Positions 9,136 through 51,635 of a DNA stretch of 64,000 bases are shown in pieces. The notes under the pieces were generated by a model, which ran no database searches, was not told the DNA's origin, and was given only the letters and a program-made list of their open reading frames with translations. The DNA lies in the NCBI GenBank assembly GCA_021815305.1, contig JAKAHC010000003.1, positions 186,001 to 250,000 of the forward strand. Direction: 5' to 3'. This DNA is from Deltaproteobacteria bacterium. GTDB lineage: Bacteria > Desulfobacterota > Deferrimicrobia > Deferrimicrobiales > Deferrimicrobiaceae. Positions within the stretch are counted from its first letter, which is position 1. The number at the start of each line of letters is the position of its first letter. The translations under genes and the position numbers were made by a program.

Positions 9136-9157
9136 TCGCGTCTCCCCTCCATGGGAC

Positions 9158-9230
9158 GATCCTTCCGGGGGAGCACTTCGGCATGGGAGGAGGAGGGGTT
9201 CTCACATCATGCCGCTCCCCCGGAAGGATC
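9158..9230. terminator. Long stem-loop between the PII gene and lutA
   Basis: A perfect 17-bp inverted repeat (GATCCTTCCGGGGGAGC with its complement at 9214-9230) extends by GGCATG/CATGCC after a 5-nt bulge. It lies just beyond the stop of the PII gene and upstream of lutA on the same strand. There is no U-tract. It may stop read-through from porin-amt-glnB into lutABC, or it may be a hairpin-type repeat. Confidence 0.55.
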
Positions 9231-9233
9231 AGG

Positions 9234-9587
<354 letters not shown>

Positions 9588-9603
9588 TCAAGGATCCCGC
9601 GCC

Positions 9604-32414: not shown

Positions 32415-33461
32415 TCAATACAGGGATTTCCCTTTGTACATGATCCCCTTCAGCGCATGCTCGACCTTCTCCACCACGGGCTTGGGCAGCGGAGCGTAGT
32501 CCAGCGCCGCCTCCAGCTTCTGCCCGTCCGTCATCGCCCATTTGAGGAACTGGATCAGCGCCTTCCCCTTGGCCTCGTTCGTCTGGTTCTTGTACACGAG
32601 GAGCCAGGTCATCCCCGCGATGGGGTAGGTGTCCTTCCCCGGGGCGTCGACCAGGGAGACCCGGAAGTCGGCGGGCATGTTCTTCGCCGCGCCCGCGCCT
32701 GCGGCCGACGTCGCCGCGAGCGTCGGGAGGACGAAGTGCCCGTCCCGGTTCCGGAGAGCGGCCACTTTCATCTTGTTCTGCTTGGCGTACGCCAGTTCGA
32801 CGTACCCGATGGCGCCGGGGGTCTGCTTCACCACGCCGGACACGCCCTCGTTCCCCTTGCCGCCAAGACCCACCGGCCAGTTGACGGACGTACCGCGGCC
32901 GACCTTCGCCCGCCATTCGGTGTTCACCGTCCGCAGGTAATTCGTGAAGATGTCCGTGGTGCCCGAGCCGTCCGAGCGGTGGGCGACCACGATGTCGGCG
33001 TTGGGCATCGTCACGGTCTTGTTCAGCTCCGCGACCTTCGGGTCGTTCCAGCGGGTGATCTTGCCCAGGTAGATGTCGGCGAGGACTTCGGGAGTGAGCT
33101 TCAGCCCGCTGTTCACGCCGTCGAGATTGTAGACGATGACCACCGCGCCGATCGTCGTCGGGATGTGGAGGATCGGCCCCGGGAGCTTGGCCATTTGCCC
33201 CTCCGTCATCGGGGCGTCGGATGCGCCGAAGTCCACCGTCCCCGTTGTGATCTGCTGGATCCCGGCGCCGGACCCGATCGACTGGTAGTTGAACCGTACA
33301 CCGGGGTTGGCGTTGGAATAATCGTAGAACCACTTGGAGTAGAGCGGGTACGGAAACGTCGCCCCCGCGCCGTTGACCGTCAGCGGCTCCGCCGAGAATG
33401 CGGCGGATGCGACCGCAATCGTTGCCAGAACGGCTGTCAGGACCCCGTAGAGCTTTTTCAT
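32415..33461 (-). CDS. pstS: Phosphate-binding protein PstS
   Basis: The 348-aa periplasmic binding protein starts with a signal peptide (MKKLYGVLTAVLATIAVASAAFSA). It has the PstS blocks TVNGAGATFPYPLYSKWFYDY, SIGSGAGIQQI, FGASDAPMT, WNDPKVAELN and the phosphate-binding HRSDGSGTTDIFTNYL. It heads the pst operon, with a Pho box 70-100 bp upstream. Confidence 0.97.
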   Translation of the reverse strand: MKKLYGVLTAVLATIAVASAAFSAEPLTVNGAGATFPYPLYSKWFYDYSNANPGVRFNYQSIGSGAGIQQITTGTVDFGASDAPMTEGQMAKLPGPILHIPTTIGAVVIVYNLDGVNSGLKLTPEVLADIYLGKITRWNDPKVAELNKTVTMPNADIVVAHRSDGSGTTDIFTNYLRTVNTEWRAKVGRGTSVNWPVGLGGKGNEGVSGVVKQTPGAIGYVELAYAKQNKMKVAALRNRDGHFVLPTLAATSAAGAGAAKNMPADFRVSLVDAPGKDTYPIAGMTWLLVYKNQTNEAKGKALIQFLKWAMTDGQKLEAALDYAPLPKPVVEKVEHALKGIMYKGKSLY

Positions 33462-33530: not shown

Positions 33531-33563
33531 AAGGAGTGAGAAGCGTGTTAAGATCGCGTTAAG
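33531..33563 (-). promoter_or_regulatory. Pho box upstream of pstS (three 11-bp units)
   Basis: Reading the minus strand, consecutive 11-mers are CTTAACGCGAT, CTTAACACGCT and TCTCACTCCTT. They share YTTMAC-N5 spacing, as known for PhoB-type regulators bound to tandem 11-bp units. The array is about 70 bp upstream of pstS. Confidence 0.65.
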
Positions 33564-33696: not shown

Positions 33697-34038
33697 ATGA
33701 GGAAACTGGCGGCATTGACGGCTCTGGTCGTTTCGGTGGTCTTCGCCTTCGGCACGGCGTTCGCCGCGCCCCCTGACAAGATGGTCCTCAAGGAGATCCG
33801 GAAGATCAAGGCGCCGGTTTCCTTCGACCACAAGGCGCACGCGGAAATGCTCAAGAAGTGCGCGGTATGCCACCATGCGGACGCGGCGGGGAAGGAGCAG
33901 AAATGCTCCAAATGCCACGGCGAAAAGACCGAGGGGAAGAAGGTCTCCCTGAAGGAAGCGTTCCACACCCAGTGCAAGGGGTGCCACCAGAAGGAGAAGA
34001 AGGGCCCCGTGAAGTGCGACGACTGCCATAAGAAGTAG
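33697..34038 (+). CDS. Tetraheme c3-type cytochrome
   Basis: The 113-aa protein has a signal peptide (MRKLAALTALVVSVVFAFGTAFA) and four CXXCH heme sites: CAVCH, CSKCH, CKGCH and CDDCH. His residues in FDHKAHAEM, CHHAD and AFHTQ can serve as distal ligands. It is a periplasmic class III (c3/c7-like) cytochrome, as used by sulfate- or metal-reducing bacteria. It lies oddly between pstS and phoR, on the opposite strand to both; no link to phosphate is evident. Confidence 0.9.
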   Translation: MRKLAALTALVVSVVFAFGTAFAAPPDKMVLKEIRKIKAPVSFDHKAHAEMLKKCAVCHHADAAGKEQKCSKCHGEKTEGKKVSLKEAFHTQCKGCHQKEKKGPVKCDDCHKK

Positions 34039-34125: not shown

Positions 34126-35913
34126 TCACGGGGTCACCGGAAACCGCAGGACGAACCGGGTCCCGACTCCCAGGCGGCTGTCCACCGCGATCGTGCCGCC
34201 GTGCGATTCCACGATGTGTTTTGCGATGGAGAGCCCAAGCCCCGTCCCTCCCAATTCCCGGGAGCGTCCCCTGTCGACCCGGTAGAAGCGCTCGAAGATC
34301 CGGTCCAGATGCTCCTGCGGGATCCCGGGGCCGTCGTCCGAGACCGAAAGCACGACGGCGCCCTCCTCGATCCTCCCGTCGAGGGTGATCCGCCCCCCTT
34401 CCTTGCCGTATTTGATCGCGTTGTCGACCAGGTTCGATAGGGCGAGCAGGATCTTCCGCAGGTCCGCTTGGAACGTTCCTTCGCCCGGCGACACGTCGAG
34501 GATCTTCCCCATCCGTTGCGCCTCCGGGCGATGCAGGGCGGCAACCCGGGCGAGGAAGTCGGACAGGGGGGCTTCCTCCTTTTCGAGGGGGATCGCGCCG
34601 GACTCGGCGCGGGAGAGCTCCAGGAGATCGTCGATGATCCGTTCCATCCGGAGAGCGTTCCCCAGGGCCACGGAAAGGAACGACGGGTCGGGTTCCGCGC
34701 CTTCCCGCATCGCGTCCTGGATCGCCTCGAGGTAGCCCCGGATGTTGGTCAGCGGGGTGCGCAGCTCGTGGGACGCGTTGGAGACGAAATCGTTTTTCAC
34801 CTGGGAGAGCCGTTTCTCCTCCGTGATGTCCCGAAGCGTAAGCAGAACGTCGGCTCCCTCCTCTCCCCGGTAGCGGACCGTCGTCCCGGACATGCGGACC
34901 ACGCGGTTCCCCTGCCGCGTCGCGAGGGAGACGTCTCCTGTGCCCGGGTTGACACCCTTGACCCACCCGTCGATGAACGCGAGAACCTGCGGGTGCCGGA
35001 TCACCTCCGCGTAAGAGCGCGTCTCGCCCATCGTTTCGGAGACGTCCAGGATCGTTCCCGCCTCGCGGTTCATCATCCGTACGGTCCTGTCGGATGCGAC
35101 CACGATCACACCGTCGGACAGGTTGGCCAGAAGCGTCTCCAGGCGCGCCTTTCCGGCATCGAGCTGCGCGATCGTGTTCGAAAGCCGGGAGGCCATGCGG
35201 TTCAAGGATTCCGCCATGTCCTCGAGCTCGTCACCCGTCCGGACCAGGACGCGCCGCGACAGGTCGCCCGCGCCCATCTCCTTCGCCGCCGCCCGCATCT
35301 CCGAAAGGGGGCCGGTGACCCGGCGCGCCATGAAGGCGGCCCCGCAAAGGATCATGAGGAGCGCCGCGAGCCCCGTCCCCCAGATGATCGTGGTGACCTG
35401 CCACATCCGGCGGTAGAGGGTCGTTGCCGGCACGGAGGCGCGCGCGGCCCCGAGGATCCTTCCGTCGTCCCGTATCGGAACCGCCGCGTACCGCTGCTCC
35501 TCCCGGACGGTAATGCTTCGGCGGAGGGAGAACGAGGGGGAACCCGAAAGGGCCACCTGGACCTCGGGGTGGTGCGCGTGGTTCTCCATTTCCGGCACGC
35601 CTTCCGCCCCGACGGTGGAGTCGGCGATGACGACGCCGTCGGGGAGTACGATCGTGACGCGCGCGTCGAGCTCCTGTCCGAGGCGGTCGACCTGCTGCGC
35701 GATCCGCCGGCGATCCGGCGACGGGGCGGCAAGCAAAGGACGGAACCGCTCCGCGGCAAGGCGCGCCCTGGAGAGCAGGGCTTCGTCGGCGTCGGACATC
35801 ACGAGGGAGCGCACGAGCAGAAATCCGGCGGCGCCGGCGATGAAAAGCGCCAATCCGGCGATCACCAGGTTGGTGAGGAAGAATTTGGAGGAGATGGAAA
35901 GGCGGCGCGCCAC
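34126..35913 (-). CDS. phoR: PhoR-type phosphate sensor histidine kinase
   Basis: The 595-aa membrane kinase has an N-terminal helix (about 12-32), a periplasmic domain of about 130 residues, a second helix near 165-185, HAMP (ARRVTGPLSEMRAAAKEM), PAS (LLANLSDGVIVV) and the kinase core: H-box SNASHELRTPLTN, N-box SNLVDNAIKYG and G-boxes DDGPGIP and GGTGLGLSIAKHIV. The periplasmic domain is larger than in E. coli PhoR, as in many other bacteria. The start is GTG at 35913, 7 bp after phoB; an ATG at 35949 would overlap phoB. Confidence 0.92.
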   Translation of the reverse strand: MARRLSISSKFFLTNLVIAGLALFIAGAAGFLLVRSLVMSDADEALLSRARLAAERFRPLLAAPSPDRRRIAQQVDRLGQELDARVTIVLPDGVVIADSTVGAEGVPEMENHAHHPEVQVALSGSPSFSLRRSITVREEQRYAAVPIRDDGRILGAARASVPATTLYRRMWQVTTIIWGTGLAALLMILCGAAFMARRVTGPLSEMRAAAKEMGAGDLSRRVLVRTGDELEDMAESLNRMASRLSNTIAQLDAGKARLETLLANLSDGVIVVASDRTVRMMNREAGTILDVSETMGETRSYAEVIRHPQVLAFIDGWVKGVNPGTGDVSLATRQGNRVVRMSGTTVRYRGEEGADVLLTLRDITEEKRLSQVKNDFVSNASHELRTPLTNIRGYLEAIQDAMREGAEPDPSFLSVALGNALRMERIIDDLLELSRAESGAIPLEKEEAPLSDFLARVAALHRPEAQRMGKILDVSPGEGTFQADLRKILLALSNLVDNAIKYGKEGGRITLDGRIEEGAVVLSVSDDGPGIPQEHLDRIFERFYRVDRGRSRELGGTGLGLSIAKHIVESHGGTIAVDSRLGVGTRFVLRFPVTP

Positions 35914-35920
35914 CGGCTTC

Positions 35921-36610
35921 TTATCCTTCCCGGAGCTTGTACCCGACATCCTTGACGGTTTCGATGGCCTTGACCAGGAGGGGGATCTTCTGCCGCAGCT
36001 TCGCGATGTGGACATCGACCGTCCGGTCGATCACGTGGGTGTCCTCGCCCCAGACCTTCCGCAGGATGGCCTCGCGGGAGAGGACCCTTCCGGAGGAGGC
36101 GAGGAGCGCCTGCAGGATGCGGAACTCCTTGGAGGTAAGGGATACCGGTTTGCCCTGGATCCGGACCTCGTGGCGGCCCACGTCCATCCGCAGCTCCCGG
36201 TACGACAGCAGCGCCGGCTCGGGCTCGCCGGCCGCCGCGTGGCTGCGGCGCAGGATCGCCTTGATCCGCGCCACGACCTCCCTGGGGCTGAACGGCTTGG
36301 GGATGTAATCGTCGGCTCCCAGCTCCAGCCCGACGATGCGATCGGTTTCATCGCCCTTCGCGGTGAGCATGACCACGGGCGTCCCGGCGATCTCCGGTGT
36401 CGTGCGGATGGCGCGCAGCACCTCCAGGCCGTCGGCCTTCGGCAGAAGGATGTCGAGAAGGACGAGGTCCGGCTTCTCCCGCCTCGCACTCAGGATCGCC
36501 GTTTCTCCATCGGGGGCGAGGAGCGGCGAGAACCCCTCCTTCCGGAGGTAGAGTGCGAGAAGGTCCCGGATCTCCTTCTCGTCCTCGACCACGAGGATGC
36601 TTCGCGGCAA
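35921..36610 (-). CDS. phoB: PhoB-type phosphate response regulator
   Basis: The 229-aa OmpR/PhoB-family regulator has a receiver domain (ILVVEDEKEIRD, phosphoacceptor in DLVLLDILLPKADG, MLTAKGDETDRI, DDYIPKPFSPREVVARIKA) and a C-terminal winged helix (LTSKEFRILQALLASSGRVLSRE, VDVHIAKLRQKI). The start is TTG at 36610 with AGGAGG 5 nt upstream. The ATG at 36643 overlaps a TATAAT and is better read as promoter. It probably binds the Pho boxes listed here. Confidence 0.93.
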   Translation of the reverse strand: MPRSILVVEDEKEIRDLLALYLRKEGFSPLLAPDGETAILSARREKPDLVLLDILLPKADGLEVLRAIRTTPEIAGTPVVMLTAKGDETDRIVGLELGADDYIPKPFSPREVVARIKAILRRSHAAAGEPEPALLSYRELRMDVGRHEVRIQGKPVSLTSKEFRILQALLASSGRVLSREAILRKVWGEDTHVIDRTVDVHIAKLRQKIPLLVKAIETVKDVGYKLREG

Positions 36611-36641
36611 CGCCGCCTCCTGAGGATCCGTCTGGGACCTC

Positions 36642-36647
36642 ATTATA
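36642..36647 (-). promoter_or_regulatory. -10 box of phoB-phoR
   Basis: The minus strand has CCCTATAATGAGG, a perfect TATAAT 31 nt before the TTG start. No clear Pho box was found upstream. Confidence 0.5.
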
Positions 36648-36796
36648 GGGCTGGGAGCGGAAATGGTACACCCTTGCCGGTCCATGCCGACATTCACACG
36701 ACAGGATGGACCCAGATGAATTCGCCGGGGAGCGGAAGGCTCCGGCGTGCGGAGATCGCTCCCATGGCGGCCAACCGGAGGATGCGGCGCACTCCC

Positions 36797-37615
36797 CTAC
36801 CCGAGGAACCGGCGGCTGTACCGGTGCACGATGTCACGGGTCCTGGCGAGGACGAAGAAGTCCGTTGTCCCGAACGAGCGGTCATAGGCGGGGGGGCCGC
36901 ATACTTTCGCCCCCAGCCGGAGATACCCCTTGAACAGCGGGGGGAGTTCGCGGAAAGCCGCCGTCTCGTCCCTCGGGACGGATCGCGAACAGGGCGGGAC
37001 GTCGAATCCCCTCCGCGGGGTGACCCGCAGGGACGGTTCGGACAGGAACCGGCGGGAGATCATTTCGTTAACCGCGGAAATCTTCGGGAGGTCGGTCCCG
37101 TGGAGGCTTACGCAACCCATCAGGGCGTCCGCCCCGCACCGTCGGAGATACTCCGCGATCCCCCGGAACAGCAGCCGGATGACGTTCCCATCGCGGTATT
37201 CGATGGCGACGCAGCTTCGCCCCAGCTCGAGGAGGCGCAGCCCGGACCGCTTCAGGTTCGTCAGGTCGAACTCCGTTTCCGAATAGAAGCCGAACGACGG
37301 CACCCGGTCGAAGGAGAGGAGCCGGTACGTGCCCACCAGGCAATCCCGCGCGGTGTCGATCACCAGGAGATGGTCGCAGTAACCGTCGTGCGCGTCCTGG
37401 TCCAGGCCGGTCGCGAGCGAGGAGGTCAACCCGAGCCGAAGCTCCAAGTTGAAAACCTCGAACCGCAGCCTCTGGGCATCGGTCGTGTCGGCCCGGCTTC
37501 CGGCCACCCGCAGCTCGAGCCCGCTCTCGCGGAGGACGAACCTGGGCCTTGCCGGCCGCCGGGGCAGGGGTTGCGCACGGGGAGCGGTATCCGAAACGTC
37601 GATGAACGGCAGCAT
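36797..37615 (-). CDS. olsB: OlsB-like GNAT N-acyltransferase (ornithine lipid)
   Basis: The 272-aa protein belongs to the family of OlsB, which acylates the alpha-amino group of ornithine (or another amino acid) with 3-hydroxyacyl-ACP to make lyso-ornithine lipid. Family features include DAQRLRFEVFNLEL, DQDAHDGYCDHLLVID, GTYRLL and LLELGRSCVAIEYRDGNVIRLLFRGIAEYL. Ornithine lipids are phosphorus-free and are made on phosphate starvation in several bacteria. A Pho box 75-107 bp upstream supports that here. OlsA is not in the window. Confidence 0.85.
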   Translation of the reverse strand: MLPFIDVSDTAPRAQPLPRRPARPRFVLRESGLELRVAGSRADTTDAQRLRFEVFNLELRLGLTSSLATGLDQDAHDGYCDHLLVIDTARDCLVGTYRLLSFDRVPSFGFYSETEFDLTNLKRSGLRLLELGRSCVAIEYRDGNVIRLLFRGIAEYLRRCGADALMGCVSLHGTDLPKISAVNEMISRRFLSEPSLRVTPRRGFDVPPCSRSVPRDETAAFRELPPLFKGYLRLGAKVCGPPAYDRSFGTTDFFVLARTRDIVHRYSRRFLG

Positions 37616-37689
37616 GCGGCACCCCTCGGCGGCTCCGTCATCTTCCGTGTTTCGTGGAGCCGCTCCTTGGATGGGCGAAGCGTACCCGC

Positions 37690-37722
37690 CGGGTGTGAAG
37701 GGAGTATTACGGCGGAGTGAAA
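37690..37722 (-). promoter_or_regulatory. Pho box upstream of olsB
   Basis: On the minus strand the 11-mers are TTTCACTCCGC, a degenerate CGTAATACTCC, then CTTCACACCCG. The outer two conform to YTTMAC-N5 and are exactly 22 bp apart. The array is 75 bp from the olsB ATG. Confidence 0.5.
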
Positions 37723-37752
37723 ATCGCGCTTTAGGGACCGGCTATCGCGAAA

Positions 37753-37774
37753 CTTCACCGTATCTTGACGCGCG
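37753..37774 (+). promoter_or_regulatory. Pho box upstream of the GH1 gene
   Basis: Two adjacent 11-mers, CTTCACCGTAT and CTTGACGCGCG, match the YTTMAC-N5 pattern in the direction of the glycosidase gene. It lies 30 bp from the olsB box on the opposite strand. Confidence 0.45.
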
Positions 37775-37879
37775 GGAGGCGGTCGAAACCGTAAAATAAG
37801 CCAACCGCGGGATCGACGGCCGCGGAATCACGCGGGGAGATGCGCAAAATTGCATCGGGGAGCAGTGTACCCGCTCGGG

Positions 37880-39160
37880 ATGCGGAAGTTCCTCTGGGGA
37901 GTGGCGACTTCGGCGTTCCAGATGGAAGGCGCGCCCCGGTGCGATTGGACCCACTGGAAGATCCGGGACGAGGCCGACCGCAAGGCACGGCTTCACGGCG
38001 TGGGGCACATCGAGCGCACCGAAGAGGACCTCGCCCTGCTGTCGGACCTCGGCGTCAACGCGTACCGGTTTTCGGTGGAGTGGAGCCGGGTGGTCCCTCG
38101 CCGCGGCGAATGGAACCGCAGGGAGTTGGACCGCTACGTCCGCATCGCCGCTTCGTTGCGCGACTCCGGAATCGAGCCCGTCGTCACGCTCCACCATTTC
38201 ACAAACCCGGCGTGGCTGGTCGGGCGGTCCGCCTGGGAGAACCCGGCCACCGCGGCGGAGTTTCTGCGCTTTGCGGAACGGGCTGTGCGCGCCCTCCGGG
38301 ATTCCGTGCGCGTCTTCATCACGTTCAACGAGCCCAACGTGTTCATCGTGGCGGGGTATTTCGCAAAGCGGATGCCTCCGGGAGGGAAACGGGCGCGGGA
38401 GGGCCTTGCGGCGTTCGCGAACGTCCTCCGGGCGCACGGGACGTTGTACGACATGATCCACGCTCTGGGACGGGAACGGCCGGCGGTCGGCCTGGCCCAC
38501 AACATGGTGGCTTTCCACCCCGCTTCCGACAAATCGGCTCTCGACCGGTGGGCCGCCGGGGTAGCCCACACCTTCTACAATATGGGGCTGATCGAGACCT
38601 TCCGGACGGGAACGTTCTCCGTCCGCATTCCGTTTCTCCTCGACGAGGAAACCCCCGTGGGCGTTCGGGACAAGGTGGACTTCCTCGGCGTGAACTACTA
38701 CTTCCGCATGTTTCTCCGCATGTCCCCCCTGAGCCTCAAGGGGCCGGATCCCTTCTGGGAGGACCGTGGCGGTCGCGGGCTCACCGAGACCGGCTGGGAG
38801 GTTTACCCGAAGGGATTCGAAGACGTGCTCCGTGCGGCCGCCCTGGCGGGAGTCCCCATCGTCGTCACGGAAAACGGAACGGCCGAGACCGACGACCTCC
38901 GGAAGATCGCCTACATGAAGGAACATCTGCGTGTCGTCCGCCGGATGATCCGGGAAGGCATCGACTTGCGGGGGTACTTCTGGTGGTCCCTGATGGACAA
39001 CTATGAATGGCTTGAAGGCCTGCGCCCCCGGTTCGGGCTGTTCCACGTGGACTTCGATACGCTCGCCCGCCGCCCGACGGATGCATCCTCGTATTTTTCC
39101 CGCTGGGTCCGGCGGAGAATCGCCGCGGACGAGGCCGCCCGCCGGCACAATACTCCTTAA
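37880..39160 (+). CDS. GH1 family glycosidase
   Basis: The 426-aa TIM-barrel protein begins MRKFLWGVATSAFQMEG, a typical GH1 start. The acid/base Glu is in TFNEPN and the nucleophile Glu in VTENGTAE. It is a cytoplasmic beta-glycosidase (glucosidase or galactosidase) with no signal peptide. The closer TTG at 37850 has a better purine stretch, so ten more residues are possible. It lies between olsB and a glycosyltransferase in a set that appears PhoB-controlled; a role in glycolipid turnover is inferred. Confidence 0.88.
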   Translation: MRKFLWGVATSAFQMEGAPRCDWTHWKIRDEADRKARLHGVGHIERTEEDLALLSDLGVNAYRFSVEWSRVVPRRGEWNRRELDRYVRIAASLRDSGIEPVVTLHHFTNPAWLVGRSAWENPATAAEFLRFAERAVRALRDSVRVFITFNEPNVFIVAGYFAKRMPPGGKRAREGLAAFANVLRAHGTLYDMIHALGRERPAVGLAHNMVAFHPASDKSALDRWAAGVAHTFYNMGLIETFRTGTFSVRIPFLLDEETPVGVRDKVDFLGVNYYFRMFLRMSPLSLKGPDPFWEDRGGRGLTETGWEVYPKGFEDVLRAAALAGVPIVVTENGTAETDDLRKIAYMKEHLRVVRRMIREGIDLRGYFWWSLMDNYEWLEGLRPRFGLFHVDFDTLARRPTDASSYFSRWVRRRIAADEAARRHNTP

Positions 39161-39188
39161 CGCACCCTTTACGCCGATTTCATTTCCC
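39156..39188 (+). promoter_or_regulatory. Pho box upstream of the PHP-GT21 genes
   Basis: Three adjacent 11-mers, CTTAACGCACC, CTTTACGCCGA and TTTCATTTCCC, follow YTTMAC-N5. They begin inside the GH1 stop region. A TATGTT -10-like hexamer at 39205-39210 follows, so transcription would start near 39217. Confidence 0.65.
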
Positions 39189-39205
39189 CGCAGCACCGGG
39201 TTGTT

Positions 39206-39928
39206 ATGTTTTCGTCCATGTCCATGTTGTTATGCGATTTCCACATCCACACCACCTGGTCGGACGGTTCGGTCGACCTCCCGGACGTGGTCGATATCTA
39301 CGGGCAGGCGGGATTCGACGTGATTTCGGTCACCGACCACGTCTACAACAGCGACAGCACGATCGGGGCGTGGGCGGACCGGCTGAACCAGGCGGTATCG
39401 GAGGAGAACTTCCCGACATACATGGAAGCTCTGCGCGTGGAATCCGAGCGTGCGATGCGCAGGTACGGCATGCTGCTCATCCCCGGAGTGGAAATCACGA
39501 AGGACTACCTCTCCGAGGAGGCGTCCGCGCATGTCCTGCTGTTGGGCCCGGGCAGGTACATATCGGCCGACCTGCCATGGCCGGACATCTTCCGCGAGGC
39601 TCGCGGGCAGGGGGCGATCGTGGTCGCGTGCCACCCGCACTACACCGACCACGAGCTTCACGACACGTTGTACTTCTGGAGGCACCGCCGGCAGTACGCT
39701 CCGTTCTTCGACGCGTGGGAGGTGGCGAACCGCAACGACCTGTTTTCCGTGGTGAGTTTGAACAACTATCCGATCCTGGCCAACGGCGACTTCCACAAGG
39801 CGCAGCACCTCTACTCCTGGAAGACGCTCCTCCCGTGCAGGAAGGAGGAGGAATCCGTGAAGGAGTGCATCCGGGACAACCGGGGGGTCGCGATCACCAT
39901 GTTCCGGAACGGGACGGCGAGAGAATAG
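39206..39928 (+). CDS. PHP-domain phosphoesterase
   Basis: The 240-aa protein is a PHP metal-dependent phosphoesterase. Metal ligands are in CDFHIHTTWSDG, VTDHVYN, IPGVEIT, CHPHYTDHE and NGDFHKAQH. No signal peptide is evident, so it is cytoplasmic. ATGs at 39218 and 39224 are alternative starts; the deduced promoter position favours one of these. It is followed 12 bp later by a GT21 glycosyltransferase. It may release phosphate from a phospho-lipid or sugar intermediate; the substrate is unknown. Confidence 0.85.
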   Translation: MFSSMSMLLCDFHIHTTWSDGSVDLPDVVDIYGQAGFDVISVTDHVYNSDSTIGAWADRLNQAVSEENFPTYMEALRVESERAMRRYGMLLIPGVEITKDYLSEEASAHVLLLGPGRYISADLPWPDIFREARGQGAIVVACHPHYTDHELHDTLYFWRHRRQYAPFFDAWEVANRNDLFSVVSLNNYPILANGDFHKAQHLYSWKTLLPCRKEEESVKECIRDNRGVAITMFRNGTARE

Positions 39929-39940
39929 GGGGAAACGCAG

Positions 39941-41122
39941 ATGATCACGCCGCTGGAATTCCTGGTATCCGCATCCCTTGCGGCCTCCACGCTGCAGTTC
40001 GGGTGCGCGTGGAAGGCGCTTCGCGGAAACCGCCGCAGCGAGCTGCCCGCGGACGCGGAGCTGCCGCCCGTATCGATCCTGAAACCGTTGAAGGGTGTGG
40101 ATGACCGGCTCCTGGACAACCTCTCCGGCTTCTGCCGTCTGGACTACCCGAAGTACGAAATCCTCTTCTGCGTCCAGGGGGCGAGCGATCCCGGGCTGCG
40201 GGTGGCCCGGAAGGTGAAGGAGTCGCACCCGGAGCGGGAGATCTCCATCGTGGTGGCGGATCGACGGGAGGGGCTCAATCCCAAGGTGAACAACATGATC
40301 CCGGGATACGACGCGGCGAAGTATCCGTTCGTGCTCATCAGCGACAGCAACGTTGCGCCGGATTCCGCATACCTCCGGGAGGCGATGTCGCACTTCCGGG
40401 ACCCCGGCGTGGGGATGGTCTCCCACCTGGTCCGGGGTGTCGGCGCGAAAACGTTGGGGGCGCGTTTGGAAAGCCAGCACCTGAACACGTTCATCCTTCC
40501 ATCCGTCTGCCTGCTCGAAGCCATGTTCTCCATGCCGTGCGTCATCGGGAAGTCCATGCTCATGCGGCGGTCGGACTTCGACGCATTGGGGGGATTTCCG
40601 GGGGTGAAGGATTACCTCGCCGAAGACTACATCCTGGGCAAGCGGTTCCGCGCGGCGGGAAAGAAGGTGGTGGTGTCCCCTTGGCCCGTGGATACGGTAA
40701 ACGTCTACCGCACGGTGCGCCAGTTCCTTTCCCGGCACGCCCGCTGGAACCGGATGCGTTTCTCCATCGCGGGCCCGGCGTACCTCGCCGAGCTGGTCAC
40801 CAACCCGGTCGGGCTTTCGGTCCCGATGGTCGCCGCGGCCGGAGGGACCGGCGAAGCCTTCCTTTTCGCCGGGCTGGTTACGGCTGCGAAGATGGCGATG
40901 GACGCCGCGATGCTCCGGCGGCTCGGGGAGCGGAAGGCGGCGCGATGGGCGTTTCTCGGTCCCTTGCGGGACCTGATGGGCTTCGGGTTGTGGTTCTCCG
41001 CGTTCTTCTCCCGGAACGTGGAGTGGCGCGGACAGACGCTGCGGATCTGCAAGGGTTCCCGCCTCGTGCCCGTGGTGGAGCTCCTCGCGATGGAGCCGAA
41101 GACGGAGGCTGCGGCCGGATGA
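39941..41122 (+). CDS. GT21 ceramide glucosyltransferase-like glycosyltransferase
   Basis: The 393-aa membrane protein belongs to GT2/GT21 (ceramide glucosyltransferase, HpnI-like). An N-terminal helix is followed by PPVSILKPLKGVDDRLLDNL, the DxD-like ISDSNVAPD, the catalytic EDYILGKRFRAAGKK and the (Q/R)xxRW motif (SRHARWNRMRF). C-terminal helices follow. It would transfer a hexose to a lipid acceptor at the inner membrane. It is in a PhoB-type transcription unit with a PHP protein, suggesting a phosphate-starvation glycolipid. No hopanoid genes surround it, which argues against HpnI. Confidence 0.85.
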   Translation: MITPLEFLVSASLAASTLQFGCAWKALRGNRRSELPADAELPPVSILKPLKGVDDRLLDNLSGFCRLDYPKYEILFCVQGASDPGLRVARKVKESHPEREISIVVADRREGLNPKVNNMIPGYDAAKYPFVLISDSNVAPDSAYLREAMSHFRDPGVGMVSHLVRGVGAKTLGARLESQHLNTFILPSVCLLEAMFSMPCVIGKSMLMRRSDFDALGGFPGVKDYLAEDYILGKRFRAAGKKVVVSPWPVDTVNVYRTVRQFLSRHARWNRMRFSIAGPAYLAELVTNPVGLSVPMVAAAGGTGEAFLFAGLVTAAKMAMDAAMLRRLGERKAARWAFLGPLRDLMGFGLWFSAFFSRNVEWRGQTLRICKGSRLVPVVELLAMEPKTEAAAG

Positions 41123-41346
41123 CCCGGAAACCCGGGGTCGGATCGAGAAGCCTCCAATGCCGCGTCTTCGGTACGGCGGGAACCAAGGCCGCGCCGGGCG
41201 GCACGGCGCAAGGGCACGGGCAGGTCATCGACCTGTCGGGACGGGGGCATCGCAAGCCCCTCCCCTTAAGGACGGCGGGAGGGCGGAAGCCGCGTCCGGG
41301 CCGCATCTACAGCTTTCCTTTGAGAAAAGAGCCCGAAGGGAAGTAA
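41119..41346 (+). CDS. 75-aa ORF coupled to the GT21 gene
   Basis: The ATG overlaps the GT21 stop (ATGA). The product is basic and Gly-rich (GHGQVIDLSGRGHRKPLPLR; RPGRIYSFPLRKEPEGK) and resembles no family I know. Coupling and an uninterrupted frame support it, but it could be chance in GC-rich DNA. Confidence 0.4.
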   Translation: MTRKPGVGSRSLQCRVFGTAGTKAAPGGTAQGHGQVIDLSGRGHRKPLPLRTAGGRKPRPGRIYSFPLRKEPEGK

Positions 41347-41382
41347 CCGCCCTGCCGCCCTTCCCATCCCGTCAACCTTCCG

Positions 41383-41415
41383 TTTCACGAATTTTTTACC
41401 CCGCGTTCACAATTT
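41383..41415 (+). promoter_or_regulatory. Pho box upstream of the secreted PHP-like protein
   Basis: Three adjacent 11-mers, TTTCACGAATT, TTTTACCCCGC and GTTCACAATTT, match YTTMAC-N5 at strict 11-bp spacing. The 203-bp gap has no other gene. Confidence 0.55.
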
Positions 41416-41549
41416 CGCAAAACCGGATTGGTACATCTTCCTGAAGGGGCCAACCGCATTCCAGGGGGGTCGATTCCAAGGAAGGAGGGGAAGGATTGTC
41501 GGTTTGTCGCGCCGCAAAAATATCCTCAGGGACAAAAGGAGAACCGGGA

Positions 41550-43409
41550 ATGAGAGGGATGAATTCCAGTCTGAGACTAGGGGTGGCCGCATTGGCCCTC
41601 TGCATGGCTTTGGCAAGTCCCGCAGGCGCCGAAAACCAGGATCGTGGGAAGGAAAAGGATCATGGGAAGGGAAAAGATCACCGGAAGGAAAGAGTGAAAT
41701 GGATGGCCGGCGATTTCCATAACCACACCCCATTCACCGACGGCAGCTGGCCCATGAACGACCTGACCGGGCCGGACGCGATCCTCGGGTCTGCGGTTTC
41801 GGGCACCACCGGGCCGTATCGGCAGGGCACGGCGCCCACCGGGTTCCGGAACGGCCTCGACTTCTTCACGAACTCCGAGCACGGGGGCCTCCGCGCCCGC
41901 GACGGCTTCGGCCGGAACTGGAACGACACGACAGCCTATCCGACGCTTCCGGCGATCGGGGATCCTACCGGCGGCCAGATGTGGCGTTGGCAGTCTCTCA
42001 TCAACCCGGCCGACATCCCGGGCTATTCCGGCCCCTGGTACCTCGGCGCATACGACTGGATCGAAGGCATCCGCGCCAACTGGCCGGACAAGATCGTGAT
42101 GACCGGCATGGAATGGAACGTCCCGGGCCACGAACACGCGAGCACCGCGATCGTCGCCGATGACCCGCTGCCGATCGCCGAATTCGAGTACCGCTTCGAC
42201 AACTCCGACACCGACGGCACGACCACTGCCGCCACGGCCACCACCATGGGGTGGACCGGCAAGATCCAGAGCAGCGGTTACGCCGCTCCCGCCTATCCGG
42301 ATTATTCCTCCGTTCTCGCCCTGAACGCCAAGCACAACAAGACCATCGATGCCGTCAAGTGGATGCAGGCCCACTACCCCACGACCGGGTACATCATCCC
42401 GGCCCATGTCGAGCGGGCGGGGTGCGGCGTGGGCGGCTACTCGATCGCCGCCTTCCGCGACATGAACGACAACGGTCCGACGGTGGCTTTCGGCTTCGAG
42501 GGACTTCCCGGGCACGACAAGGCGAGCAACCGCGGCGAATTCAGCGGCAGTGCCTGCGGCGGCGGCACCTATGGCGGCGCGGGCATCTACATCGCCCAGG
42601 TGGGCGGCCTCTGGGACAGCCTGCTGGCCGACGGGCGCAGGTTCTACAACTTCGACAGCTCCGACTTCCATGATACGCCCAACGATTTCTGGCCCGGAGA
42701 GTACGAGAAGACCTACGTGAAGGTGAAGGGTTCCGGCCATGGCGGGACCTACACCCAGGAAGACGTCATCGACGGCCTGCGCTCCGGAAACGCCTTCTCC
42801 GTCCACGGAGACCTGATCAACGAGCTCGATTTCCGGGTCTTCCCCGGAGCCTCCTTCGGCAGCCGCAGCGCCACGATGGGGGAGACGCTTTCCGTCGGGA
42901 AAGGGGAAAAGGTAACCGTCCGGATCCGGTTCAAGAGCCCTGCCGCCAACAACTGCAAGCCGGGCGTCAATGCCTCCGCGGGCTATGTCTGCGCCCTTCC
43001 GGTGGTTCACCACGTGCAGTTGATCCAGGGGCGTATCAACCCGACGAAGGCGAAGAAGTTTCTTGGCGACGGCGTTACCCCGAACCCTGCCTACAATTCG
43101 ATCGACAGCACGGCCGCCGGCATCGTCAAGACGTTCGATGCCTCTTCTTGGCGCATCGACGAGGAGGGCTTCACCACGATGTACTTTGTCGTTCCGCACG
43201 TCCGGAACGACATGTTCTTCCGTATCCGGGGCACGAATCTCCCGTATCACGAAGTCCGGTATGACGCGACGGGCACAAGGATCGTGTACGGGACCGATGC
43301 CGCGGGCAGTCCGCTGCAGAACACCCCCGGCACGAACAACGCGGAAATGGCTTGGAGCGACCTCTGGTTCTACAGCAACCCGGTCTTTGTCGACGCACGG
43401 TTGCGGTAG
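41550..43409 (+). CDS. Secreted PHP-like metallophosphoesterase
   Basis: The 619-aa protein has a signal peptide (SLRLGVAALALCMALASPAGA), then a Lys/His/Glu-rich linker (about 28-48) and a PHP-like domain. Its metal motifs are AGDFHNHTPFTDG near 52, FFTNSEHGGLR, EWNVPGHEHAS and NFDSSDFHDTPND. The C-terminal half is beta-rich. It is probably periplasmic or secreted and could scavenge phosphate from organic esters. AAAGGAG precedes the ATG at 41550. A Pho box upstream supports induction by phosphate starvation. It is followed by a terminator. Confidence 0.8.
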   Translation: MRGMNSSLRLGVAALALCMALASPAGAENQDRGKEKDHGKGKDHRKERVKWMAGDFHNHTPFTDGSWPMNDLTGPDAILGSAVSGTTGPYRQGTAPTGFRNGLDFFTNSEHGGLRARDGFGRNWNDTTAYPTLPAIGDPTGGQMWRWQSLINPADIPGYSGPWYLGAYDWIEGIRANWPDKIVMTGMEWNVPGHEHASTAIVADDPLPIAEFEYRFDNSDTDGTTTAATATTMGWTGKIQSSGYAAPAYPDYSSVLALNAKHNKTIDAVKWMQAHYPTTGYIIPAHVERAGCGVGGYSIAAFRDMNDNGPTVAFGFEGLPGHDKASNRGEFSGSACGGGTYGGAGIYIAQVGGLWDSLLADGRRFYNFDSSDFHDTPNDFWPGEYEKTYVKVKGSGHGGTYTQEDVIDGLRSGNAFSVHGDLINELDFRVFPGASFGSRSATMGETLSVGKGEKVTVRIRFKSPAANNCKPGVNASAGYVCALPVVHHVQLIQGRINPTKAKKFLGDGVTPNPAYNSIDSTAAGIVKTFDASSWRIDEEGFTTMYFVVPHVRNDMFFRIRGTNLPYHEVRYDATGTRIVYGTDAAGSPLQNTPGTNNAEMAWSDLWFYSNPVFVDARLR

Positions 43410-43439
43410 CATCCGCAATCCGCAGCCGGGGACACTGCT

Positions 43440-43469
43440 GGGGGGAGGCGGGGCGACCCGCCGCCCCCC
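43440..43469. terminator. Terminator between secreted PHP-like gene and lipid kinase
   Basis: GGGGGG-A-GGCGGG pairs with CCCGCC-G-CCCCCC across GCGA, one mismatch. It separates the convergent genes at 43409 and 43491. Confidence 0.7.
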
Positions 43470-43490
43470 TTCGAGCCGGAACGGGGGCCG

Positions 43491-44369
43491 TCAGAGGGCG
43501 GGGAATGCCGGCGGGACGACGATTTTCAGGGGAACGCCGGTCATCGTGAAGCGGACGGGGAGGGGTCCGAGGTACTCCCCGTCCACCTGCGCCGCCGAAG
43601 GGATGGACGAGCGGACCACGACGGAGGTCGTTTCCCGGACCAGGACGTGGCGGGATGCGGTGTGCCTTCCCCGGAGGGCGTCGAGGGCGAACTGCGCGAT
43701 CGCCCATCTTCCCTTGCGGAGAAGCCCGATCACCTGGAAGGCGGTCCCCTCGATGTTCCCGGCGGGCGCGATGGTCACGTTGCCCCCGTACTTCTTCCCC
43801 CGGACGATGATCACCGACTGCACCTCGATCCGCTCGCGGCCGGGGAGCTCGAGCCACAAGGCGGGCTGTTTCCGCAGGATGTGCCGGGCGCCGACCAGGA
43901 CGTAGGCGGCGATCCCCAAGGCGTTCTTCTGGCGGTGGTGCATCCGTTCCACGACCTCGGCGTCGAAGCCGGCGGAGGCGAGGAGGACGAAATAGCGGTC
44001 GTTCGCCTTCCCCAGCGGGACGGAGATCGTCTTCCCTTCGGTCAGCAGGGCCAGGCACCCTTCCACCGAGGCGGGGAGGGAGAACTCCTTGGCGAACACG
44101 TTCCCCGTCCCCCCGGGAACGACCGCAAGCCGGGTCGCGGCGCCCGCCAGCCCGTTGGCGGCCTCGTGGACCGTCCCGTCGCCGCCGACGGCGACCACCG
44201 TGTCCGCCCCCTCGAAGGCCGCCTCGCGGGCCATCACGACGGCGTCCCCGGGCCCTGCCGTCTCGCGGATGCGGAAGGGGACGCCTTGCCGGGACAGGTA
44301 CGAGCGGACCTTTTCGATCCTGCCCGCAATCTTCGGCCCGGCGACCGGATTGTAGATCACGTCGATCAT
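43491..44369 (-). CDS. Diacylglycerol kinase-like lipid kinase (YegS/LCB5 family)
   Basis: The 292-aa protein has the DAGK catalytic motif VVAVGGDGTVHEAANGL and VVPGGTGNVFAKEF, IYNPVAGP at the N-terminus and the C-terminal beta-domain (AGFDAEVVERM, VDGEYLG). It would phosphorylate diacylglycerol, a sphingoid base or a related lipid. TATAAT is 8 nt upstream of the ATG, so the mRNA may be leaderless. Its location among lipid-modifying genes fits recycling of diacylglycerol. Confidence 0.9.
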   Translation of the reverse strand: MIDVIYNPVAGPKIAGRIEKVRSYLSRQGVPFRIRETAGPGDAVVMAREAAFEGADTVVAVGGDGTVHEAANGLAGAATRLAVVPGGTGNVFAKEFSLPASVEGCLALLTEGKTISVPLGKANDRYFVLLASAGFDAEVVERMHHRQKNALGIAAYVLVGARHILRKQPALWLELPGRERIEVQSVIIVRGKKYGGNVTIAPAGNIEGTAFQVIGLLRKGRWAIAQFALDALRGRHTASRHVLVRETTSVVVRSSIPSAAQVDGEYLGPLPVRFTMTGVPLKIVVPPAFPAL

Positions 44370-44376
44370 CGGCTGC

Positions 44377-44382
44377 GATTAT
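44377..44382 (-). promoter_or_regulatory. -10 box of the lipid kinase gene
   Basis: The minus strand reads CCTATAATCGCAGCCGATG, TATAAT 8 nt before the ATG. This gap of only 28 bp also serves the divergent glycerophosphodiesterase. Confidence 0.4.
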
Positions 44383-44397
44383 AGGATACTTTACGGT

Positions 44398-45123
44398 ATG
44401 CGTCCTCTCTTCCCCTGCAAGGAGCCGGGCCGACCCGTTTTCGTCGCCCACCGCGGCGCGTCGGACCGCGCGCTGGAGAACTCGGCCGCCGCCTTCGGGC
44501 TGGCGGTCGCCGACGGCGCCGACATGATCGAGTTCGACGTCCGGCTCTCTTCGGACGGCGTGCCGGTGGTCTTCCATGACGAGAGGACGGGACGCACGGC
44601 GAGGGAGAACCTCTCCGTGTCGGGAACGCCCGTGGCGCGCCTGTGCCGGGTCCGGCTGAAGAACGGGGAGGCGCTTCCCACCCTGGCGGACGTGCTGGCC
44701 CTGGTCCGCGGCGCGGTCCCCCTGAACATCGAGTCGAAGGCGGAGGGCGGGATGGCCGCGACGAAGGACGCGCTGATCGCCGTGGGATACGTCGGCGAGT
44801 TGGCGCTCTCCTCGGGCCTCCGGCGGGAGTGCCTGGCGGCGCGATCCCTTTTTCCGGGGCTGCCGTGCGGGCTGGTGACGCGCCGTCCGTCGGCCTCGGA
44901 CCTGGCCTTCTGCCTCCGCCACGGCCTCTCCTCGATCCACCCCGACCACCGGCTCCTCACCGTCTTGCGGCTTCGGGAGCTTGCGGCCGCGGGGGTCCCG
45001 TTCCTGCCGTACACGGTCGACGAACCGGACGAGGCGTCCCGCCTTTTCGCCGCCGGCGCGATCGGCGTCTTCTCCGACCGCGCCCGGACCCTGCGGGAGG
45101 AGTGGCGCCGCCGCGCCGGGTGA
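44398..45123 (+). CDS. Glycerophosphodiester phosphodiesterase
   Basis: The 241-aa protein is a GDPD TIM barrel. Catalytic blocks are VAHRGASDRALENSAAAF, MIEFDVRLSSDGVPVVFHDE and NIESKAE. It hydrolyses deacylated phospholipids to glycerol 3-phosphate and an alcohol, in the cytoplasm as no signal is seen. It is divergent from the lipid kinase. It would help recover phosphate from degraded phospholipid. Confidence 0.92.
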   Translation: MRPLFPCKEPGRPVFVAHRGASDRALENSAAAFGLAVADGADMIEFDVRLSSDGVPVVFHDERTGRTARENLSVSGTPVARLCRVRLKNGEALPTLADVLALVRGAVPLNIESKAEGGMAATKDALIAVGYVGELALSSGLRRECLAARSLFPGLPCGLVTRRPSASDLAFCLRHGLSSIHPDHRLLTVLRLRELAAAGVPFLPYTVDEPDEASRLFAAGAIGVFSDRARTLREEWRRRAG

Positions 45124-49428: not shown

Positions 49429-51563
49429 CCGGCCCCCGTCCCGCGCCCTCGCGGCGCGTCCTCCTCCTCTGTTTCCACAACCACCAGCCGGTGGGGAACT
49501 TCGACTCCGTCCTCGAGGGGGCGACGCGGGACGCCTACCGGCCGTTTCTGGCCACCCTCGCCGCCTTCCCCTCCGTCAAGGCCACGATCCACTTCTCCGG
49601 GTGGCTGCTCCGGTGGATCGAGGAGCGCGCCCCCGAGACGTTCACCCTCCTCCTGGACCTCGTGTCCCGCGGCCAGGTGGAGCTTCTGGGCGGGGGGATG
49701 TACGAACCGGTCCTTGCGCTGCTTCCCGAGCGCGACCGGCGGGGGCAGATCGAGGCGCTCTCCGGGGCCATCTCCCGCCGGTTCGGGAAGGCGCCTCAAG
49801 GGATCTGGCTCGCCGAGAGGGTGTGGGAGCCCGACCTGCCCGCGACGCTCTCCGCGGCGGGGGTCGGGTACCTTCCGCTGGACGACTACCACTTCGTGCG
49901 CGCGGGCCTTGCCCGCGAGGAGCTGGACGGGGTCTACCTGACGGAGCACAACGGGGCGGCCGTCCGGGTGTTCCCGGGGAACGAGCGGCTCCGGTACCTC
50001 ATCCCCTTCGGGGACGTGGAATGGACCCTCTCGGAGATCGGGCGGATGACCTCGCGCGACGTCCCGTTCCCCGCGGCGATCTTCGCCGACGACGGCGAGA
50101 AGTTCGGCGTCTGGCCGGGGACCCACAGGAGCGTGTACCAGGAAGGGTGGCTGAACCGGTTTTTCGAGGGGATCTCCGCCCGCGCCGGCTGGCTGACGAC
50201 GATGACCTTCGGGGAGTACGCAGCCGCCGCGCCGCCGCGCGGGACCGTCTACCTCCCCACCTGCTCCTACATCGAGATGGGGGAGTGGACCCTGCCGCCG
50301 CGGCCCGCGGCCCGGTTCGGCGAACTGCTGCACGACTTCCGCGCGGGGAGGATGACGGAGATCCTGCCCTTCGCCCAGGGGGGACACTTCCGAAACTTCC
50401 TCCGCAAGTACGACGAGTCGAACCAGCTCCACAAGCGGGTGCTGTGGGCGAGCTCCCGGGTCGAAGCGGCCGAACGGAAAGGGGGACCTGGCGCGCGGGG
50501 GATCCGCGACGATCTCTACAGGGCGCAGAGCAACGACGTCTACTGGCACGGCGTCTTCGGGGGACTCTACCTCAACCACCTGCGAGATGCGGCGTACTCG
50601 AACCTTCTCAAGGCGGAAAGAGCGGCGGATGCGGTGCTGCACGCCGGGAAGGCGGGATGGATCGAGGTCGTGAAAGGGGACATCGACCGGGACGGCGGGC
50701 CGGAGCTGCTCCTCAAGACCTCCCTCCTCACCCTCTTCGTGCACGCGCACGACGGCGGCGCCCTGACCGAGATCTCCCTCCCTTCGCGGGGCGTGGCGCT
50801 GGGGCACGTGCTCACGCGGAGGGAGGAGGGGTACCACGCGAAGTTCCGCCGCGCGGCGGGGTCGTTCGACGGATCGACGAGCATCCACGACGTCCTGGTG
50901 CTCAAGGACCCGTCGGTCCTCTCCGCCCTGGGGGCGGACCCGTGGCAGCGCGCCTCCTTCCGGGAGGCGATCTACCGGGAGGAGGACTCCCCGGAGGCGA
51001 TCTTCTCGGGGGCGGCGGGTCCGCGTTGCGCGACGACCGCGGGACAGGATGCGAAGGTGTCGACCTCGCGGCGGGGAGCGCGCCTCGACGTTACGCTCTC
51101 CCTTCCCTTTCGGGGCGAAGGGCTCGACCTGCTGTTGTCGAAATCTCTGGTCCTTCGGGCCGGAACGGAGGGGTTCGAGGCGTGTTACCGGCTCGCGAAC
51201 CGTGGGACGCAGAGCGTTTCGGGGCGGCTCTGCGCGGAGTGGAACCTGAACCTCCTGTCGGGGAGCGGGCCGGAACGGTATTACGAGGGGATGGGGGATG
51301 CGCGGGAGATGTCCTCCTCCGGGGTCGCGGACGGCGTGCGGCGATTCCGGCTCGTGGACGGCTGGCGCAAGGTGGCCGCCCAGGCCGATCTGGACCGGGA
51401 GAGCGCCGTACTGCGGTACCCCATCGAAACCGCGTCTCTTTCCGAGGCGGGGGCGGAGAGGATCCACCAGGGAGTCTGCCTGCGGATCCTCTTTCCCTTC
51501 CATCTTCCGCCAGGGGAATCCGAACGATATTCCGTCCTTTGGTCCTTCTATTCCGTTGATTAA
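49425..51563 (+). CDS. GH57 family 4-alpha-glucanotransferase/amylase
   Basis: The 712-aa protein is a GH57 enzyme of alpha-glucan metabolism. The N-terminal catalytic barrel has HNHQPVGNF, the nucleophile in GIWLAERVWEP and the acid/base Asp in IFADDGEKFG. DUF1925/DUF1926-like beta domains fill the C-terminal half (NLLSGSGPERYYEGMG). That layout is typical of 4-alpha-glucanotransferase. The start is TTG, overlapping the epimerase stop. No other glycogen gene adjoins it. Confidence 0.9.
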   Translation: MTGPRPAPSRRVLLLCFHNHQPVGNFDSVLEGATRDAYRPFLATLAAFPSVKATIHFSGWLLRWIEERAPETFTLLLDLVSRGQVELLGGGMYEPVLALLPERDRRGQIEALSGAISRRFGKAPQGIWLAERVWEPDLPATLSAAGVGYLPLDDYHFVRAGLAREELDGVYLTEHNGAAVRVFPGNERLRYLIPFGDVEWTLSEIGRMTSRDVPFPAAIFADDGEKFGVWPGTHRSVYQEGWLNRFFEGISARAGWLTTMTFGEYAAAAPPRGTVYLPTCSYIEMGEWTLPPRPAARFGELLHDFRAGRMTEILPFAQGGHFRNFLRKYDESNQLHKRVLWASSRVEAAERKGGPGARGIRDDLYRAQSNDVYWHGVFGGLYLNHLRDAAYSNLLKAERAADAVLHAGKAGWIEVVKGDIDRDGGPELLLKTSLLTLFVHAHDGGALTEISLPSRGVALGHVLTRREEGYHAKFRRAAGSFDGSTSIHDVLVLKDPSVLSALGADPWQRASFREAIYREEDSPEAIFSGAAGPRCATTAGQDAKVSTSRRGARLDVTLSLPFRGEGLDLLLSKSLVLRAGTEGFEACYRLANRGTQSVSGRLCAEWNLNLLSGSGPERYYEGMGDAREMSSSGVADGVRRFRLVDGWRKVAAQADLDRESAVLRYPIETASLSEAGAERIHQGVCLRILFPFHLPPGESERYSVLWSFYSVD

Positions 51564-51635
51564 ATATTCCTGAAACTGTATGTTGGGACCACGAATTCCA
51601 CGGGGGCGGTGAATTCCGCGAGGAGGAGGGTCCGC

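Follow-up and report, generated by a model that had tools for sequence, protein, structure and literature searches.

How might a bacterium that answers phosphate shortage with phosphorus-free lipids obtain the diacylglycerol on which its glycolipids are built? This question is raised by a locus beside phoBR in a deltaproteobacterium of the family Deferrimicrobiaceae (assembly GCA_021815305.1, contig JAKAHC010000003.1, positions 186,001 to 250,000; this stretch of 64,000 nucleotides is called the window below), the host genome of which measures 2.77 Mb and is 97% complete. The answer proposed here, with a probability of about 0.58, is PhoB-controlled lipid remodelling in which a glycosyl-diacylglycerol and an aminolipid would replace phospholipids, and in which a PHP-domain protein would be the diacylglycerol-releasing phosphoesterase. 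The genes at the centre of this proposal are as follows.

36797..37615 (-), OlsB-like N-acyltransferase (Acetyltransf_5; NCBIfam OlsB 171 bits, cut-off 350)
37880..39160 (+), GH1 beta-glycosidase (Pfam GH1; best PDB match 1vff, BGPh)
39206..39928 (+), PHP metallophosphoesterase, proposed to release diacylglycerol (PHP domain; fold nearest to 2anu, TM0559; metal ligands kept)
39941..41122 (+), GT21 lipid glycosyltransferase, proposed to be a diacylglycerol glycosyltransferase (GT21 domain, signature residues, tree)

A collection scan yielded 80 loci, 66 of them from Nitrospirota and deltaproteobacteria. The GT21 gene lies directly 3' of the PHP gene on the same strand in 65/66 of the latter, with a spacing of -30 to about +220 bp, which bears out the neighbourhood conservation of PHP and GT21 that an earlier sequence-only reading of the locus had named as a check. 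The lone locus in which the two are not adjacent (L085) is on a 3.3-kb contig. GH1 stands directly upstream of PHP in 31 loci and anywhere in the locus in 50 of the 66, while Pst/PhoU, OlsB or a PhoR-like kinase is encoded within half of them (33/66) and olsB within six. The same-family relatives G013 and G007 carry GH1-PHP-GT21 beside olsB and phoR/phoB, relative G010 carries it next to genes that look, by eye, like those for phosphonate uptake and C-P lyase, and relative G011 has PHP-GT21 beside phoBR. The sequence-only reading had described a seven-gene island for lipid remodelling beside phoBR, which adds a secreted PHP-like esterase, a lipid kinase and a glycerophosphodiesterase (GDPD) to the genes above. 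All seven are present at the positions and in the families that it gave, as checked by open reading frames (ORFs) and Pfam/NCBIfam matches across the window, and a Pho-controlled locus that predicts an aminolipid and a glycolipid is upheld. The whole 36.8-45.1 kb island was rejected as a unit, given that conservation extends to GH1-PHP-GT21 only, with olsB, pst and phoR recurring; in the neighbourhood comparison dagK, the GDPD gene and the secreted PHP-like gene fall outside it. In a Chlorobium metagenome-assembled genome (MAG; L106), a PHP gene lies near a pstS-like gene, with no glycosyltransferase directly adjacent.

The PHP subfamily is found with four kinds of glycosyltransferase, namely GT21, MGDG_synth-GT28, GT2 and GT4. 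In Verrucomicrobia, the PHP domain is the C-terminal part of a fusion protein of ~665 residues whose front, made up of MGDG_synth and a GT28 C-terminal domain, has (di)glucosyl-diacylglycerol synthase as its closest NCBIfam model. This fusion is encoded by at least six complete ORFs, the PHP part being 44-47% identical to the window PHP. In Acidobacteria, the PHP gene follows a few bases 3' of a GT2 gene. Two acidobacterial loci (L096:7243-10894 and L098:7123-10927) show the row GT2-PHP-PHP'-GT4. A PHP_C domain is found in the second of the two PHP proteins, and N-acetylglucosaminyl-phosphatidylglycerol synthase is the closest match of the GT4. MGDG synthase was not found in the genome to which the window belongs. 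A suspected PHP-GT21 fusion in L028 was discarded, as this ORF (7725-9680, +) joins a PHP domain of the same subfamily to a response-regulator/histidine-kinase module; PhoB- and PhoR-like genes lie near it.

The window PHP has a complete metal-ligand set (H13, H15, D20, H45, E96, H109, H143, D195 and H197), in roles that we take to be those of PHP enzymes in general. These residues are invariant or at least 90% conserved across 79 sequences and are kept throughout the partner types. The nearest structure to its AlphaFold model (pLDDT 86.7) is 2anu, TM0559 of Thermotoga maritima, with an E of 1.8e-28, 40% identity and a TM-score of 0.93 by target length in the structure search, and 292 bits by profile. 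TM0559 belongs to the same PHP subfamily over its full length, and is itself a hypothetical protein, solved in 2005, with no assigned function.

By its PHP domain and fold, the window protein is unrelated to the metallophosphoesterase PlcP, whose operon layout it nevertheless shares, a Pho-controlled gene directly upstream of a glycolipid glycosyltransferase gene. Gemmobacter and Pannonibacter have a gene for a PlcP-like metallophosphoesterase directly upstream of a GT21 gene, and the published plcP gene types 3 and 5 consist of plcP followed by a GT21-type gene (PMC4796936). The plcP-agt and plcP-pgt operons of Alphaproteobacteria likewise have Pho boxes and a phosphoesterase gene immediately 5' of the gene for a lipid glycosyltransferase (PMC4796936, PMC8231724, PMC3972451). 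A single PlcP query detected no PlcP in the window's genome, nothing above 26 bits in 25/25 PHP-cassette genomes (one 26-bit match) and, among 59 relatives of the host genome, no match over 50 bits; the same query recovers PlcP-like proteins at 33-52% identity in plasmids. Because PHP holds the same operon place and no PlcP was detected in the genomes that bear it, the most economical reading is that PHP would replace PlcP in function. Unlike the plcP operons, the window cassette has a PHP that is non-homologous to PlcP and a GH1 in addition. The taxa differ too, the PHP cassette being found in Nitrospirota and deltaproteobacteria, and with other glycosyltransferases in Verrucomicrobia and Acidobacteria, whereas the plcP-agt and plcP-pgt operons compared are alphaproteobacterial.

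The new part is therefore the PHP protein in the place that PlcP holds elsewhere, and not GT21. Pgt of the plcP-pgt operons belongs to the same CAZy family as the window GT21; in Agrobacterium and M. loti this enzyme represents a known phosphate-starvation route and prefers diacylglycerol (PMC3972451), and glycolipid synthesis by Pgt under phosphate starvation is established (PMC3972451, PMC8231724). The suggestion that PHP, GT21 and GH1 form an unusual route holds for PHP, which is not the PlcP route, and for GH1, but not for GT21 alone (PMC3972451, PMC4796936). The window GT21 domain carries the D, D, (Q/R)xxRW signature (DSN at 135, ED at 227 and RHARW at 265). In a phylogenetic tree, in which UGCG is represented only by a fragment, the PHP-linked GT21s form one clade (100/99) that joins UGCG, PlcP-linked and rhizobial GT21s (100/98), with HpnI outside.

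Control by PhoB is indicated by Pho boxes. The E. coli-like consensus CTTNAC-N5-CTTNAC has three exact matches in the 64 kb, at 33547 (-) before pstS, at 37753 (+) between olsB and GH1, and at 39156 (+) between GH1 and PHP. This pattern alone was judged too weak, and a motif was instead derived from other genomes and cross-validated. The de novo motif from the regions upstream of their PHP cassettes, YTTMAT-N5-TGTAAC, has two half-sites 11 bp apart, which is the PhoB layout, and reaches a log-likelihood of 281, shuffled sequences giving about 70. With the window and its close kin excluded from training, it gives 7 sites of at least 10 bits in the window vs 1.75 expected; six precede olsB, PHP, the secreted PHP-like gene and pstS, and the seventh precedes a FadL-type gene. 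The boxes are listed below.

33546..33563 (-), Pho box of pstS, CTTAACGCGATCTTAACA (exact CTTNACN5CTTNAC; 11.0 bits; regional p 0.051)
37694..37722 (-), Pho box facing olsB, three 11-bp half-sites TTTCACTCCGC CGTAATACTCC CTTCACA (19.3 and 12.8 bits; kept in G013 and G007)
37753..37769 (+), Pho box facing GH1, CTTCACCGTATCTTGAC (exact consensus; kept in G013 and G007)
39156..39195 (+), Pho box of PHP-GT21, CTTAACGCACC CTTTACGCCGA TTTCATTTCCC (exact consensus; motif site 39178, 10.5 bits; regional p 0.036; kept in relatives)
41383..41422 (+), Pho box of the secreted PHP-like gene, three to four half-sites (sites 41405 and 41383, 14.3 and 10.3 bits; regional p 0.019)

The top-scoring site of the window, at 37705 (-), faces olsB and has its third half-site at 37694; the region-wise p for olsB/GH1 is 0.002. 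The GH1 box rests on the consensus and is conserved in two relatives. PhoB-type direct repeats of 11 bp are seen before olsB, GH1, PHP and the secreted PHP-like gene, and weakly before pstS, whereas the motif scan and regional shuffle test of the window found no Pho box before phoBR, dagK or GDPD. The earlier statement that most of the island lies behind Pho boxes is thus about right. Fourfold cross-validation, in which a promoter was significant if it beat 99% of its own shuffles, returned 35/66 cassette promoters vs 48/185 of the remaining promoters in these loci (Fisher p 7e-5); a significant motif was also present in 7/11 pstS loci. An earlier test at a 12-bit cut-off was only marginal (Fisher p 0.028), while the shuffle-based test is clear.

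The genes, their Pho boxes, the conservation of the cassette, the fusion and the placement of GT21 are directly observed; from them we infer every chemical step of the following model. Under phosphate limitation, PhoB would switch on two lipid branches from divergent promoters. In the first, the OlsB-like acyltransferase would start a phosphorus-free aminolipid, probably ornithine lipid, to be completed by a PlsC/OlsA-type enzyme encoded elsewhere. In the second, PHP would strip the phosphate-bearing head group from phospholipids, in the manner of a phospholipase C, or the phosphate from phosphatidate, yielding diacylglycerol and phosphate. GT21 would then transfer a sugar from a nucleotide sugar onto the diacylglycerol so released, and the cytoplasmic, BGPh-related GH1 would trim or transfer sugars on the glycolipid. 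PHP, though no relative of PlcP, would take the role that PlcP plays in plcP-agt and plcP-GT21 operons.

Several points weigh against this model. No reported activity was found for any PHP of the TM0559-type subfamily, and the open-access literature yielded no paper linking PHP proteins to lipid remodelling. The absence of PlcP depends on one query protein and on MAGs that are partly incomplete, and the characterised Pgt sequence is missing from the GT21 tree, where rhizobial and PlcP-linked GT21s act as stand-ins. The OlsB-like protein scores 171 and 156 bits against OlsB cut-offs of 350 or 320, OlsB still being its best family; some cassettes lack GH1, which is then dispensable; and the Pho motif is also enriched in other promoters of the same loci, which fits Pho islands and weakens its specificity. 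Finally, three PAP2-type phosphatases encoded in the genome could supply diacylglycerol, so that PHP might act on something else.

This last point opens the alternative that survives best, and which we consider unlikely without dismissing it. Glycolipid and aminolipid synthesis would again be Pho-controlled, with diacylglycerol coming from the PAP2 phosphatases or from normal turnover, and PHP would hydrolyse released glycerophospho-alcohols, nucleotides or sugar phosphates, or remove a group from the glycolipid head. Besides the three PAP2 proteins, it is favoured by the characterised PHP relatives among the structural neighbours, which act on nucleotides, histidinol phosphate and RNA, and by HpnI, a GT21 relative that pairs with a head-group-modifying enzyme (HpnK deacetylates after HpnI). 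However, the link of PHP extends to four kinds of glycosyltransferase, one of them fused to it as a domain of the diacylglycerol-glycosyltransferase type; the sole feature that these four plausibly share is the acceptor, and PlcP occupies the same operon place.

Improbable by comparison is a phosphate-scavenging set (GDPD, the secreted PHP-like esterase and PHP) brought together by chance with unrelated carbohydrate genes. GDPD and a secreted hydrolase are typical scavenging enzymes, and pst, pit and ppx are nearby, but GH1-PHP-GT21 is conserved across phyla, fusion to a glycosyltransferase cannot be chance, and GDPD and dagK lack Pho boxes and lie outside the conserved unit.

The remaining alternatives concern the acceptor of GT21. 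The nearest solved structures of this enzyme are ceramide glucosyltransferases, and it could make a glucosyl-ceramide, as Caulobacter does in its glycosphingolipid response; for this locus we regard that as very improbable. No serine palmitoyltransferase was found in the 97% complete genome, where the sole AOS-family enzyme is BioF, above its own cut-off, and the GT21 relative Pgt prefers diacylglycerol (PMC3972451). A glycosyl-ceramide product is therefore unlikely, and diacylglycerol is the probable acceptor; of the two glycolipids previously suggested, glycosyl-diacylglycerol is the better prediction and glycosyl-ceramide is disfavoured. That GT21 is an HpnI-type enzyme of a hopanoid-modifying locus is scarcely tenable and already largely refuted: HpnI is its best NCBIfam match and shares the GT21 fold, and a squalene-hopene cyclase (803 bits) marks the genome as hopanoid-producing, but the match of 270 bits is below the cut-off of 310, the enzyme falls in a clade of its own, a separate, true HpnI (431 bits) is encoded on contig C6, some 2.5 kb from the cyclase gene, and no hpnJ, hpnK or other hopanoid genes stand beside GT21 among the window genes. 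The cyclase and true HpnI genes are found together at 35424-40910 of that contig (G000; L149, L111), and the organism probably makes glycosylated hopanoids.

The aminolipid branch of the proposed remodelling begins with the Acetyltransf_5 GNAT domain of the OlsB-like protein. Because the protein falls below the curated OlsB cut-offs, sequence does not settle the amino-acid head group, which may be ornithine, glutamine or another. OlsA is absent from the island, and two PlsC-type acyltransferases elsewhere in the genome, which match OlsA models below cut-off, could serve in its place. The ornithine lipids predicted earlier are thus retained as an aminolipid branch with a Pho-boxed OlsB-like gene, though not with ornithine as an assured head group. 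In Desulfovibrio alaskensis G20, an anaerobic deltaproteobacterium, glycolipid and ornithine lipid replace phospholipids at low phosphate (PMC5193443), the same replacement that is predicted here from genes. That organism uses a GT4 Agt and OlsF, whereas the window has GT21 and an OlsB-like enzyme, with PHP linked to the glycosyltransferase.

The GH1 protein has the catalytic glutamates of its family (NEP at 148 and TENG at 330, present in 45 and 47 of 47 sequences), and no signal peptide or transmembrane-like stretch was seen in its sequence, which suggests a cytoplasmic location. Its place in one Pho-controlled unit with the glycolipid synthase makes a role in shaping the glycolipid, by trimming or transglycosylation, more likely than feeding on sugars. 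Plant SFR2 is a possible parallel. The best solved match and nearest solved relative is 1vff, BGPh of Pyrococcus horikoshii (261 bits over the whole length), which is membrane-associated and prefers long-alkyl glucosides (PMC4687101); unlike the window GH1, BGPh has no known phosphate control or link to a lipid glycosyltransferase. A wider claim, which is doubtful as a whole, would combine two parts: that TM0559-type PHPs are a new, non-homologous class of phosphate-starvation phospholipase C (or phosphatidate phosphatase) which, across Nitrospirota, deltaproteobacteria, Verrucomicrobia and Acidobacteria, supplies several different glycolipid synthases and is in some cases fused to the synthase, and that the GH1 beside it, in a manner comparable to SFR2, acts as a transglycosylase on the glycolipid and extends its sugar head without new nucleotide sugar.

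Exchanging phospholipids for phosphorus-free lipids is a major phosphate saving for microbes, and plcP is used as a marker gene in studies of it. If PHP does the work of PlcP in these four groups, present counts of lipid remodelling in soils, sediments and groundwater would be too low, a concrete gene marker would be available for a source of bacterial glycolipids there, and the PHP subfamily of TM0559 would have its first testable function. The Verrucomicrobial fusion of PHP and glycosyltransferase places both proposed steps in one polypeptide.

The other genes around the cassette are listed below.

32415..33460 (-), pstS, head of pstSCAB-phoU, start approximate (similarity and gene order; gives the Pho context)
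34126..36015 (-), phoR sensor kinase (Pfam HAMP, PAS, HisKA, HATPase_c)
35921..36697 (-), phoB response regulator (Pfam Response_reg and Trans_reg_C)
41550..43409 (+), secreted PHP-like hydrolase of the CehA/McbA type, accessory (NCBIfam CehA_McbA 48 bits; hydrophobic N-terminal stretch; homologues in L079 and L090)
43491..44369 (-), YegS/DagK-type lipid kinase, neighbour outside the conserved cassette (TIGR00147 above cut-off; without Pho box)
44398..45123 (+), glycerophosphodiesterase (GDPD), neighbour outside the conserved cassette (Pfam GDPD; without Pho box)

The island is flanked by phoBR (34126-36697) and then pstSCAB-phoU on one side and by DUF47-Pit on the other, the gene order on the Pho side being ppx, phoU, pstBACS, a small cytochrome c gene, phoR and phoB. 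The closest named relatives of the host genome are 'Deltaproteobacteria bacterium' MAGs (L030, L031 and L063). For the secreted CehA/McbA-like PHP protein, a cassette of Nitrospirota holds a version that is 77% identical, which suggests that it sometimes travels with the cassette. The small multihaem cytochrome c gene (33697-34038, +) lies between pstS and phoR, and similar small genes occupy the same place in G013 and G007. A strong Pho-box-like site at 51560-51577 (+; 19 bits, regional p 0.003) precedes the gene at 51609-52964 for a FadL/OmpP1-type outer-membrane transporter, a possible further member of the Pho regulon.

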